DNA of 64,000 bases from positions 1,938 through 65,937 of the forward strand of contig MKVL01000038.1 of the NCBI GenBank assembly GCA_001899205.1, in the 5' to 3' direction. Shown here in pieces: positions 15,409 to 30,596 of this stretch; the first letter of the stretch is position 1, and every line of letters starts with the position of its first letter. The position numbers and the translations under genes were made by a program. The notes under the pieces are model-generated. The model did not search any database, was not told the DNA's origin, and was given only the letters and a program-made list of their open reading frames with translations. The stretch is from Mesorhizobium sp. 65-26. GTDB lineage: Bacteria; Pseudomonadota; Alphaproteobacteria; Rhizobiales; Rhizobiaceae.

Positions 15409-15618
15409 ATGAATACTGGGACCGTTAAATTCTTCAACGCGACCAAGGGATTTGGCTTCATTGCCCCCGAGAATGGTGGCACCGACGTGTTCGTCCATAT
15501 CTCCGCGGTGGAGCGTGCCGGCATGCGATCGCTTGTCGAGGGCCAGAAGGTCAGCTTCGACATCGTCAAGGACAATCGCAGCGGCAAGAGCGCTGCCGAG
15601 AACCTGCAGGCCGCATAA
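15409..15618 (+). CDS. cspA: Cold-shock protein, CspA family
   Basis: 69 residues, one cold-shock (OB-fold) domain with RNP1 KGFGFIAP and RNP2 DVFVHIS, the single-strand nucleic acid binding motifs. It is an RNA chaperone of the CspA family. GGAAAATC precedes the ATG. The 242 bp upstream are AT-rich and gene-free and probably form the long 5' leader usual for cold-shock genes. A strong terminator lies 65 bp downstream. Confidence 0.95.
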
Positions 15619-15682
15619 AGAGATTGCGCTTCTGGTCTTTGACCACGGATGTACTGGCACTGATCATCGAGGCGCATAGGAG

Positions 15683-15712
15683 AGGCCGGGTTCGCCCGGC
15701 CTTTTTGCTTTT
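15683..15712 (+). terminator. Rho-independent terminator after cspA
   Basis: An 8-bp GC-rich stem (AGGCCGGG / CCCGGCCT) with a stable TTCG tetraloop is followed by TTTTGCTTTT. It ends the cspA transcript 20 bp before the next small gene. Confidence 0.9.
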
Positions 15713-19755: not shown

Positions 19756-19860
19756 TAGAGCAATTCCAGCAAAAGTGCGTAGCGGTTTTGCGTCCGGAAT
19801 TGCGTAAAAACAAAGAGCTAGAGCAATTCCGGCGATTCAGTTTTCGCCGGAATTGCTCTA
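19756..19860. repeat. Palindromic intergenic repeat between convergent genes
   Basis: The element begins TAGAGCAATTCC and ends GGAATTGCTCTA, so its two ends are inverted copies. The right half alone (19819-19860) is a perfect 17-bp stem with an 8-base loop. CTAG occurs at both ends (19755 and 19858). It lies between the marR stop and the convergent monooxygenase gene, whose TAG stop is its last three bases. Elements of this sort are scattered in Mesorhizobium genomes. The long stem may also serve as a transcription end for both genes. Confidence 0.8.
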
Positions 19861-20157
19861 GATCGGAGCGCCCTCGCCCGCCTCGTGGAGCAAAAGGTTC
19901 CGCTCCCCGATGCCGAGATCGCTCCAGCGCGCGCGCCATTCGGCGATATGCGCCGACTTGAAATGCGCATCGAGCGCGGCCCTGTCGCTCCAGGCCTCCG
20001 AGACATGGATCAGGCCCGCGTCCAGCACATCCTGCGCATAGGAATACGCAAGGCAGCCCGGCTCGGCGCGGCTGGCCGAGATCATCCTTTCCATAACCGG
20101 CCTGGCCTCCGCTAGCCGCTCGGCCGGCATGCGAATGGTGCCGATGATCAGCAGCAT
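19858..20157 (-). CDS. Antibiotic-biosynthesis-monooxygenase (ABM) fold protein
   Basis: 99 residues, the full length of a one-domain ABM protein (YgiN-like quinol monooxygenase family). Typical parts are IIGTIRMPAERLAEARPVMERM, SRAEPGCLAYSYAQD, VSEAWSDRAALDAHFKSAHI. Such enzymes oxidise quinols or polyketide-like compounds without a cofactor, or detoxify. The substrate is unknown. Its stop codon belongs to the palindromic repeat, so the present C-terminus (HEAGEGAPI) may have been set by insertion of that repeat. Confidence 0.82.
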   Translation of the reverse strand: MLLIIGTIRMPAERLAEARPVMERMISASRAEPGCLAYSYAQDVLDAGLIHVSEAWSDRAALDAHFKSAHIAEWRARWSDLGIGERNLLLHEAGEGAPI

Positions 20158-20245
20158 GCTCTTGTCCTCGCGAATAGCCAGATGAGCACGGCGGCCTCCG
20201 CTGCTAAGTGTTCCTCCGGGTTCGATGGGTAATCTGTAGCCCTAC

Positions 20246-21799
20246 CTAACGCGGAGCATTGAACTTTTTTTGATTTTCCGAGGCCGCAGCTTTGCGTACG
20301 ACAATCTCTTCAAATGCGGCAAATCCGCTTCTCACAACCTTCGCCTCGAAGTCGGTGTAGAAGGGCGCTATCAAGCTAAGATTTGGACGCTTTCGGTCTC
20401 TTATATACGGTTCGAATTGCCCATCGGATTTGCGAGATCCTCTCTCGAAGAGCTCACGGTACCGTCTAGGGGTGACACCGTGGAAATGCTCGAACTTAAC
20501 CGCCTCATACGTCTCGTAGCGCCCGCGTGAGGCTCCTTCTATCTGGATGGAATCGGAATGCAAGTCGCCGGCGAGGCTTTTGGGATAAGGCTCTAAGAAG
20601 ACAACTTTCTTGAGCCCCGCAGAGACAATGTGCTTGGCGCACATATGACACGGGAAAGTGGTACAAAAAAGGGTGGCATCAGCAACGGATAAGCCCAGCC
20701 TAGCCGCGTCAGAAATGGCTGACATTTCAGCGTGGACAATCCGGCCGTATTCCAAAGCATCCATAAACTGGGATTCCCTGACAGCCTCCTTCTTCGCGAA
20801 TTCATCGAAGCTCAGTGGGGATTCTGCGGCAGCAAATATCTCGGCAAGAATCTCTCGCTTCCTGCCGTCGTTGGAGTCGAAGCCGATCGTGTACTCTCTG
20901 GCGTCGTAGGGCGCCTCGTCACACCAGTATGTACCGCCTCCAGCCTTTGGCACCTCGTTTGAGCCCAGACTGATTACCTCACCACTACTGCGAAAGATAG
21001 CCGCACCGACCTGACGGGAAAGATCAAGCGTGCGCAAAGCCGCCGCTTTTGCAGCGAACATACCGTATTCAAGCTTGGTCGGCGAAATTGAATTGGAAGA
21101 GAATATTAATTCGAGGAACCGAGTGACTTGTTTATCAGCGCCGTCGTGCTCAACTGCGTCGCAATTTACGATAAAATCTGCGTCGTGAAATATCTTTGTG
21201 AGTCTCTGACCATGAAGATTTTTCTTTTCATTTTCATCTCTGGCCACAAGGTCGTGCGCTATGCTCCGCGATTCTGATTGGTCTGCCGTTCCTCTATCGT
21301 GTGCGATTCGATGGCTGAGGTAGTCGATTCTCGATTTCTTGCTTGAATAGATTGATATCTGGAAGAATAATCTTCCGTATACCGATCTCATCAGGTCTAT
21401 TTCTTCCTTTCTTTTGAATTGATGTATTATATATACACGCTTTTGGTACGATATTTGTTGCTTTTTCTTAAATTCCCTCTCACGTATCTTCGCGATACGA
21501 AATACCGCATGAGCGGCCAACACAGAGTCATCATTAAATTCTTCTCTAATTTTGTTTCCAAAATCAATATAACTGAAAATTCTCCGATCTATGGGCTTCT
21601 TTGTAAGCGGAAGGTCAATATAAAGAGATTTCTTTAAAATGTCAAAGTAATCTGTTACCTTAATATCAAATACATCATATCCAGAAGAGATAAAGAATCG
21701 AGATATACTCGATATAACTCCCGACGTTTCGACGCCTACAGGCGAAACGAGACCTATAAATATTTCCGGGGAATCAAGTTTTTCTAGTGCGTTCTGCAC
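20246..21799 (-). CDS. AvcD-type anti-phage dCTP deaminase
   Basis: 517 residues from a GTG start preceded by AAGGGG. It has two parts. Residues 1 to about 230 form a P-loop kinase-like domain whose nucleotide loop reads GLVSPVGVETSGV, lacking the usual Lys. Residues about 245-460 form a zinc deoxycytidylate deaminase domain: HAE at 356-358 (Zn ligand and catalytic Glu) and PCHMC at 383-387 (two Zn Cys). This layout and length match the AvcD family of anti-phage deaminases, which drain dCTP/dCMP after infection. In the Vibrio system an upstream RNA, AvcI, keeps AvcD inactive. The gene is clearly more AT-rich than its surroundings, indicating transfer. Regulation and partner RNA are not proven here. 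Confidence 0.82.
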   Translation of the reverse strand: MQNALEKLDSPEIFIGLVSPVGVETSGVISSISRFFISSGYDVFDIKVTDYFDILKKSLYIDLPLTKKPIDRRIFSYIDFGNKIREEFNDDSVLAAHAVFRIAKIREREFKKKQQISYQKRVYIIHQFKRKEEIDLMRSVYGRLFFQISIYSSKKSRIDYLSHRIAHDRGTADQSESRSIAHDLVARDENEKKNLHGQRLTKIFHDADFIVNCDAVEHDGADKQVTRFLELIFSSNSISPTKLEYGMFAAKAAALRTLDLSRQVGAAIFRSSGEVISLGSNEVPKAGGGTYWCDEAPYDAREYTIGFDSNDGRKREILAEIFAAAESPLSFDEFAKKEAVRESQFMDALEYGRIVHAEMSAISDAARLGLSVADATLFCTTFPCHMCAKHIVSAGLKKVVFLEPYPKSLAGDLHSDSIQIEGASRGRYETYEAVKFEHFHGVTPRRYRELFERGSRKSDGQFEPYIRDRKRPNLSLIAPFYTDFEAKVVRSGFAAFEEIVVRKAAASENQKKFNAPR

Positions 21800-21854
21800 G
21801 TTAACAGCCCCTTAAAATTCTGGTAGCATGATTCCCCAAACCGGAGGAACGACC

Positions 21855-22064
21855 ATGCACGGCAAGCTTGGCGTAAAGGACAGCGTCTCAGTGGTGACAT
21901 CCGAATATATCGATGGGCTAATCGAGCGCAGCGGAGCATATTATTCTATTTGGCTCAAACATGATGGAAGTACAGAGGCCATCAATCTGCCCTCCGTTTC
22001 GGTACCAAGGTCACAAATCCCAACGTTGCCCCCAACGCCCACCAATATAGTCAGAGCCAAGTAG
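21855..22064 (+). CDS. Small unknown protein divergent from the deaminase
   Basis: 69 residues, starting 55 bp from the deaminase start on the opposite strand. A full GGAGG lies 6 bases before ATG 21855, better than the ATG at 21828, which has none. Features: VKDSVSVVTSEYIDGLIERSG, then YYSIWLKHDGSTEAINLPS, then a Pro/Thr-rich end. No membrane segment or known motif. The base composition is intermediate between the deaminase and the host genes. Position suggests it belongs to the same acquired unit, but a role is not known. A perfect hairpin lies 12 bp after its stop. Confidence 0.55.
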   Translation: MHGKLGVKDSVSVVTSEYIDGLIERSGAYYSIWLKHDGSTEAINLPSVSVPRSQIPTLPPTPTNIVRAK

Positions 22065-22076
22065 GCTTCGACGCCC

Positions 22077-22119
22077 CAACACAAAGGCAGGAGCGATGAA
22101 GCTGTCTGCCTTTGTGTTG
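22077..22119. terminator. Perfect 14-bp hairpin beside the deaminase island
   Basis: CAACACAAAGGCAG (22077-22090) is repeated exactly in inverted form at 22106-22119, with a 15-base loop. On + it lies 12 bp after the small ORF stop and could end its transcript, although no T-run follows. On - it would fold in RNA transcribed toward the deaminase gene, about 280 bases before its start, where an AvcI-like regulatory RNA would be expected. Which of these holds cannot be decided from sequence. Confidence 0.5.
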
Positions 22120-22550
22120 CAAAATCTATCTCCAAAAGCAATTAGTTGCCAGCCGGCGGTAGTGCTGGATCACGATCCATCCCCACATAGTTAAATAGAC
22201 AGCTCAGCAATGCTGGCGCGCCTTTCGCCGCGTGTTAGGTCTTTATTCGCAGAAAATCCGCGCTGACCAATCAACCTGCCGCAGAGGGCGAGAGGGCAAG
22301 CTTCAGAAGCCCCTCGACATGCCATGACCCTAGCGCGGCCGGTCACATCATCAAGCTAGTGCTAATATTCGCTGAAACAGACTGTCGTCCTCAGAGTTGC
22401 TAACTTCGACGGTTGCGCCTCCCTTTCATCTCCGGTCAGGGGGCGGACGCCGGCTCAGGCTAGCTCTCTCCCTCTCCCACCCTCGCGCAAGCTTGGCTCG
22501 CTACGGTCGGGGGCCTGGCCTTGCCCGGCAAATGTGGATTCGAGGACGAC
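22120..22550. other. Gene-free stretch before flhA
   Basis: About 430 bp between the hairpin and flhA. I find no convincing coding frame. The left part (to about 22250) is mixed in composition and may be the outer edge of the acquired island. The right part (about 22430-22540) is GC-rich with a TCTCTCCCTCTCCCA tract that looks like a worn rhizobial repeat. A promoter for flhA-fliR must lie here, since the operon's upstream genes are 11 kb away, but no clear -35/-10 pair stands out. Confidence 0.5.
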
Positions 22551-30056: not shown

Positions 30057-30596
30057 CGGGTTTCTCCATCACGCCTTACGGCGCGCACAAGGGTGCGGAC
30101 GCGGGCCGTCGGCCTCGCGAAACGCGATCAAACAAAGGCGGGACGAAAATTCCATGGAACCAGCCGGTGGAGACCCCGGAACCATGAAACGCCGTCTCGC
30201 GGCGATGAACCTAGCCTTGCCCGGCTTCGGTTCGCTTTGTCTGCCTTGGCTTGGATTGGGAGAACCCCGTTCCGCACTGCCGGCAATGAAGGTGTGCCTC
30301 TTCAGTAACCCCGGTCTTTGGACGACCGGCAGAGAACCAGAAAGGCCCGCACCGTCGTTGCTTCAAGGTGTCCTCGGTCTGGCGGTTGGCCACTAGACCG
30401 ACTGGAGGGGTTAGCTCCAGTTACCTTACCGATTTCCCTCACCATTCGAGGATCGGCGGACACCCACAGGCACGTGCGACTTTGGGCAAGCGCGATATAT
30501 GGCCGGCGTCCGTCACAATCAATAAAAATCGTATCCGCGGTTGTAAAATTTCTGGCATCGAACAATGTAACGAAAAACGCATCCGGATATCGAACG
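30057..30596. other. Divergent intergenic region between decarboxylase and amidase
   Basis: 540 bp with no convincing gene. The part at 30311-30420 forms several hairpins on the minus strand (listed separately) and is the leader of the decarboxylase mRNA. The part from about 30500 to 30590 is AT-rich (AATAAAAATCG, TTGTAAAATTTC) and probably holds the amidase promoter. A 60-codon GTG-started minus-strand frame at 30211-30393 overlaps the hairpins and is not taken as a gene. Confidence 0.6.
30311..30420 (-). ncRNA. Structured leader RNA of the decarboxylase gene, speF-motif candidate
   Basis: Read on the minus strand, three hairpins follow each other: CTGGAG/CTCCAG (30402-30420), CGGTCT/AGACCG (30375-30400, inner pairs also possible) and CCGGTC/GACCGG with a 7-base loop (30311-30329). 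They lie 255-365 bases before the decarboxylase start. The speF motif is a conserved leader RNA found upstream of ornithine decarboxylase genes in alphaproteobacteria, and position and gene fit. I could not align it to the published consensus, so the family assignment is an inference. Confidence 0.5.

Follow-up and report, generated by a model that had tools for sequence, protein, structure and literature searches.

A divergently encoded small protein as the candidate control element of an AvcD-type deaminase in Mesorhizobium

What controls the AvcD-type deaminase encoded in a 64,000-nucleotide stretch of DNA from Mesorhizobium sp. 65-26 (assembly GCA_001899205.1, contig MKVL01000038.1, positions 1,938 to 65,937; hereafter the window, on which all coordinates are given unless stated otherwise)? 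In Vibrio, AvcD is paired with AvcI, a non-coding RNA located upstream of avcD (PMC9455884, PMC10511110). According to the published work, this RNA antitoxin is lost when a phage stops host transcription (PMC10511110; PMC9455884, PMC12409362). An initial annotation of the window, made from the sequence, had named either a hairpin RNA or a small protein as the possible control element at the Mesorhizobium locus. Our comparative analysis favours the small protein, because its gene is under coding constraint and is distributed over one clade of deaminases, and because homologues of its sister family occur on phages. We propose, with a probability of roughly 0.6, that deaminase and small protein form a two-gene anti-phage module, in which a protein inhibitor would stand in place of the AvcI RNA.

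The deaminase gene (20246..21799, minus strand) starts with GTG and encodes a protein of 517 amino acids. This protein scored 432.4 bits against NF041025, the NCBIfam model for anti-phage dCTP deaminases (cut-off 400, residues 12-455), 528.8 bits against the PADLOC dCTPase model (residues 4-511), and 64.2 bits against PF00383. The ComEB model reached only 46.3 bits, compared to a cut-off of 219.45. These scores support the assignment as an AvcD-type anti-phage dCTP deaminase made in the initial annotation, and a housekeeping dCMP deaminase (ComEB type) was ruled out; an ordinary dCMP deaminase had been considered there as the competing identification. The zinc deaminase motifs HAE (residues 356-358) and PCHMC (residues 383-387), recognized from the start, are both invariant in an alignment of eight rows including the window protein, and H356, A357, E358, P383, C384, H385, and C387 are also invariant in an alignment of 38 rows. 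The N-terminal domain, initially described as P-loop-like, is modeled confidently (mean predicted local distance difference test score [pLDDT] of 88.8 for the whole protein, block means of 82-97 over residues 1-180), but the motif itself is a degenerate GLVSPVGVETSG without the Walker A lysine, in which G16 and G22 are invariant in the 38 rows. The genome contains one deaminase match. Matches were present in 15 of 146 genomes of the genus (own genome included, E ≤ 0.001), two of which (G077 and G132 in our numbering of genomes) match only around the catalytic motif, and in 29 of 394 genomes of the family (E ≤ 1e-30).

The small gene noted in the initial annotation as a divergent open reading frame (ORF) of 69 residues is located upstream of the deaminase gene on the opposite strand (21855..22064, plus strand) and is preceded by a GGAGG ribosome-binding site (21843..21847, plus strand). 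To look at such regions more widely, six-frame translations of the DNA upstream of deaminase genes were compared by blastp; of 120 matched loci, 112 had usable starts and upstream DNA, and 96 non-redundant ones were left once identical upstream sequences had been removed (loci of all kinds are cited below by L numbers). Upstream of these 96 loci, opposite-strand small ORFs fell into families C (18 loci), B (11), A (7, window included), D (6), E (3), and F (2). Components in other frames appeared too, which we read as probable shadows of the same conserved DNA. The start codons of the small gene and the deaminase gene are 39-122 bp apart across the families. The distance is 55 bp at the window locus, at L002, and on a Pararhizobium gei plasmid, whose copy of the small gene carries the annotation "hypothetical protein". 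A Shine-Dalgarno sequence precedes 38 of the 45 chosen small-gene starts (A 6/6, B 10/11, C 18/18, D 1/6, E 1/2, F 2/2), the starts having been picked with an eye to this motif. The proportion of nonsynonymous differences (pN) was below that of synonymous ones (pS) in all 42 pairs of small genes with at least 45% identity, which are mostly from family C and not independent of each other. The small divergent genes evidently evolve as proteins. W33 of the small protein is invariant in the A/B/E alignments (17 and 19 rows). The window protein had no match in NCBIfam, Pfam, PADLOC, or PHROGs at E ≤ 1, no PADLOC model matched the family C proteins, and other members gave scattered matches to the family libraries, the best with an E value of 0.00072 for one of 19 members.

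The carriers of a small divergent gene constitute one clade in a deaminase tree of 95 rows (Shimodaira-Hasegawa-like approximate likelihood ratio test value of 99): the gene is present in 56 of the 58 rows of this clade, compared to 0 of 37 outside. The tree was calculated by a quick method (LG+G4) after removal of L048, which contains an internal stop, and earlier exclusion of L013-L016; it has long branches and no inferred root, and speaking of one clade assumes a root outside the carriers. The clade consists mainly of Alphaproteobacteria and spans many bacterial families. On this tree, one change is needed for each of families A, C, D, E, and F, and four for family B. Ten of the 56 carrier labels had been set by eye, and we therefore recounted with one uniform rule (40-90 amino acids, start 20-160 bp upstream, broad Shine-Dalgarno motif), for which 57 of the 58 and 34 of the 37 rows had enough upstream DNA. 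By this rule, a divergent small gene is present in 52 of 57 rows within the clade and 2 of 34 outside, and with strong motifs only in 34 of 57 and 0 of 34; Fisher statistics on these counts treat related rows as independent. A divergent control window 320-460 bp upstream gave 6 (broad motif) and 3 (strong motif) of 57 rows inside the clade, compared to 2 and 0 of the 34 rows beyond it, and co-directional ORFs in the control window amounted to 5/57 and 7/34, respectively. No divergent small gene fitting the rule was found at the relatives from Vibrio nigripulchritudo, which is annotated as an anti-phage dCTP deaminase, and from an E. coli plasmid (L308). The divergent gene of the Zymomonas relative is unrelated and lacks a Shine-Dalgarno sequence, and at the Azospirillum relative, a chance ORF with the motif resembles none of the small-gene families.

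Among IMG/VR contigs, inspection revealed 16 deaminase loci of at least 37.7% identity, several of which nearly duplicate one another or loci from genomes; the small gene is clear in 15 and doubtful in one (L179). At identities of 36.8% or less, three of four loci are without it, and the fourth, L182, is uninformative, since its match begins at residue 73. Searches of the 394 family genomes with profiles of C and of A/B/E returned 9 and 4 strong matches, respectively, all adjoining a deaminase gene. Since 12 of these 13 were themselves profile rows, the informative part is that no strong matches occurred elsewhere, an absence that is incomplete because the A/B/E profile overlooked at least one partner already known (G356, seen at locus L049). 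Four weak A/B/E matches (E 1.8e-4 to 2.5e-3) lie within long frames. Taken as a whole, the comparison of genomes shows that the small gene codes for a protein and is inherited together with the deaminase in one clade. That it is an ordinary neighbour, linked to the deaminase by chance or by the history of the insertion, is contradicted by the distribution over one clade that covers many bacterial families, by the uniform-rule count, and by the same pairing on the IMG/VR contigs; one orphan copy of the small gene, described below, agrees with this explanation, which we nevertheless consider extremely improbable.

Downstream of the small gene lies the second candidate, a hairpin (22077..22119, plus strand; arms 22077-22090 and 22106-22119) that is perfect, as first reported, with 14 of 14 positions paired. 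It is not followed by a run of T. The hairpin is strong (folding-energy z of -5.2), and the characterized relatives of the deaminase are controlled by RNA (PMC10511110, PMC9455884, PMC12409362). Both points would fit a control by RNA as in Vibrio AvcID, with the upstream region or the hairpin as regulator and the small ORF as incidental. But the hairpin is not kept in the closest relative, L075, where the small gene is followed by an unrelated hairpin and then TTTT. Because this is as expected of a terminator, the hairpin is most likely the transcription terminator of the small gene. RNAalifold did not detect a conserved fold on either strand of the aligned upstream DNA (4 rows for family A, 5 for B, 9 for C, and 5 for D), with z values between -1.5 and +0.2 and one undefined, a test that is weak at such divergence with four to nine rows. 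No Rfam match was obtained inside the inserted segment that carries both genes. We rejected the hairpin RNA as the regulator, given the unrelated hairpin of L075 and the lack of a detected conserved RNA fold; of the two elements originally named, the small protein is favoured and the hairpin is not supported. Given in addition the coding selection seen in 42 of 42 pairs, RNA control in any form appears improbable at this locus. A non-coding RNA antitoxin beside avcD, as in type III AvcID systems, was not found here by the search for a conserved fold and the comparison with Rfam, which would pass over an unconserved RNA; a protein-coding gene occupies that place. On the E. coli plasmid, an annotated hypothetical gene of 61 amino acids (L308:1209-1394) is located directly upstream of the deaminase gene on the same strand, and an AvcI-like RNA might lie at that site.

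The short distance between the divergent starts could also mean that the small protein regulates transcription from the promoter region shared by both genes, in which case it would affect expression rather than the activity of the enzyme. A promoter of the small gene is predicted at 21801..21829 on the plus strand (TTAACA, 17 nt, extended TAGCAT; 9 of 12 matches), which is weak by itself, since the scan returned three sites compared to 2.3 in shuffled DNA. Its TTAAC block is kept in five family A loci (L001, L002, L017, L164, and L165), as this explanation would have it. The structure prediction argues against it: the small protein is modeled as a single helix (residues 5-38) with a low-confidence tail and without a helix-turn-helix (mean pLDDT 67, predicted template modeling score 0.35; pLDDT 87-92 over residues 11-30 and about 51 from residue 41 on). 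Moreover, copies on phages that lack a deaminase would find no target promoter there, unless they are aimed at the host locus. A role as transcriptional regulator is therefore hard to credit, and we return to the small protein as the presumptive inhibitor of the enzyme.

Such copies exist in family C. The gp31 protein of phage phiM6 (L295:5992-6126; MH700630.1 27236-27370) is 44 amino acids long and includes the C-family core. No deaminase was detected in phage phiM6, nor on an IMG/VR contig with another stand-alone C-family homologue, and the stand-alone C-type gene on phages is under purifying selection. This is as expected of a counter-defence mimic, a role suggested by the sequences. For the combined claim, that a major deaminase clade, mainly of Alphaproteobacteria, is checked by divergent small proteins in a type II-like version of AvcID, and that phiM6 and other rhizobial phages carry a mimic of 44 residues for one class of these proteins, with which they keep the deaminase off during infection, we see slightly less than an even chance. 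Alternatively, the small protein could be an activator, sensor, or guard needed for the response, with the phage homologue as the trigger or the thing sensed; in a guard version, for example, the phage homologue would displace the host protein and thereby turn the enzyme on. The co-inheritance data fit this equally, phage copies exist, and a sensor could resemble a phage protein. However, a phage is unlikely to retain under purifying selection a stand-alone gene that merely switches a defence on, and the Vibrio enzyme is active once the AvcI RNA is gone (PMC10511110). We regard an activating or guarding role as unlikely and continue with the small protein as an inhibitor.

Several observations weigh against the inhibitor and its phage mimic. 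The copies on phages are members of family C, the sister of the window's family A, and C has no detectable homology to A/B/E (hhalign probability 0.4%); family D is borderline when compared to A/B/E (E value of 0.026). The counter-defence argument therefore reaches family A by position only. For the window's own family A protein, the scans revealed no copy on phages, one of them being insensitive, as it missed the family A gene of L164. Phage records likewise yielded no copy of one D and one B member, viral-contig scans with D queries returned only contigs with already known deaminase loci, and a scan of viral contigs with a single C protein had no match. A third viral match (L299:3602-4492) is weaker (E 5e-6) and corresponds to an internal stretch, RPETRRGPYVITDEDI, of a phage protein of 297 amino acids. 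The IMG/VR records may be fragments. An orphan C-type gene (L282:2974-3165) is present on the R. leguminosarum plasmid pRlX5, and queries of types A and C found no deaminase within 25 kb around it. Within the clade, the deaminases of L080 and L103 have no partner and lie 12 bp behind an upstream gene on the same strand, which we take to encode a P-type ATPase-like protein. Finally, inhibition and phage defence in this clade are deduced from sequence. On pRlX5, the orphan gene is followed by an ORF of 252 amino acids, whose product is presumably related to the RNA-ligase family.

If the preferred reading is correct, the deaminase would strip the cell of deoxycytidine nucleotides (dCTP/dCMP), and the small gene would supply a short protein, helical and with a disordered tail that is presumably short-lived; this protein would bind the deaminase and keep it off. 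Once a phage stops host transcription, the small protein would no longer be produced and, assuming that it is labile, would decay, so that the deaminase would be released upon infection. The C-type copies of phages may keep the enzyme off as a counter-defence mimic. One anti-phage enzyme family would then be under two controls, RNA in Vibrio and protein in this clade, and defence annotation would gain a missing component. In the open-access literature, neither a protein partner of a dCTP deaminase nor an anti-dCTP-deaminase counter-defence protein was described among the matches listed. To our knowledge, few phage antagonists are known for nucleotide-depletion defences. The proposed reading also makes a question on counter-defence directly testable, namely the function of gp31, which is unassigned, has 44 residues, and comes from an S. 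meliloti phage that has been sequenced.

The closest known system is Vibrio AvcID, a type III toxin-antitoxin system with the same kind of deaminase (V. cholerae AvcD presumably passes NF041025) and an adjoining candidate regulator. The window differs in its partner gene, which encodes a protein, lies on the opposite strand, and has a ribosome-binding site of its own, whereas AvcI is a non-coding RNA. The match to the PADLOC dCTPase model over nearly its full length also links the window enzyme to the E. coli dCTP deaminase defence, said to have been described by Tal et al. in 2022; unlike in the window, a divergent gene fitting the rule is absent at the relative from the E. coli plasmid (L308), and the small proteins of the window and of family C lie outside the PADLOC models. 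With a small protein gene paired with a toxin gene, as judged by the coding and clade evidence, the locus resembles type II toxin-antitoxin systems. Hints at an antitoxin that binds and neutralizes its toxin and is labile are indirect, namely the phage-borne homologues of family C and the low-confidence tail of the model. One type II system, DarTG, is reported to act in phage defence and to have a phage-encoded antitoxin mimic (PMC11481870). A labile protein antitoxin and a phage-borne mimic, both proposed for the present system, would be shared with such systems, but the toxin is a different one, and the window's small protein matched none of the families searched.

Both genes are part of an inserted segment of 2.2-2.3 kb, whose left edge is uncertain (20176 to 20243) and whose right edge is at about 22462, beyond position 22119 where the stretch first described ended. 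The 5' DNA of the adjoining flagellar gene, which we take to be flhA, was matched in 145 of 146 genus genomes, and the site was compared in the best 30 loci (own and 29 others). The insert is absent at this site from all 29 relatives. In 27 of them, the gene on the other flank (19858-20157), encoding an ABM domain (PF03992), is close to the flhA-side DNA (22470 on), and in the remaining two (L257 and L259), the gene preceding the ABM gene, presumably MarR-like, adjoins it instead. The spacer between the flanks measures 82-179 bp in 24 of the 29 relatives and about 2.4 kb in the window, and we therefore place the insert at about 20180/20243 to 22462. Its G+C content is 0.38-0.54, compared to 0.61-0.73 in most flanking intervals, in line with the AT-richness first noted. 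Absence in the relatives and low G+C support acquisition of the deaminase segment by insertion, rather than a gene of normal composition held at the same place by all relatives. An insertion as such was thus correctly recognized, but not its position between flagellar genes, as the segment lies at the edge of the flagellar cluster with flhA on one side and the ABM-domain gene on the other. No integrase or transposase was recognized by eye among the ORFs of the insert, and no tRNA was found in the window. The 344-bp right tail (22119-22462) had just short weak matches in seven other genus genomes and no plasmid match (query 22065-22470); its source was not found.

Some further elements of the window lie outside the insert. 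Between the MarR-like and the ABM gene, positions 19756-19861 contain repeated AGAGCAATTCC/GGAATTGCTCT elements, which in our estimation resemble rhizobial intergenic repeats. Rfam matches were obtained for ar35 at 15575-15710 and, adjoining each other on the minus strand at 30184-30487, for a speF leader and the small RNA ar45.
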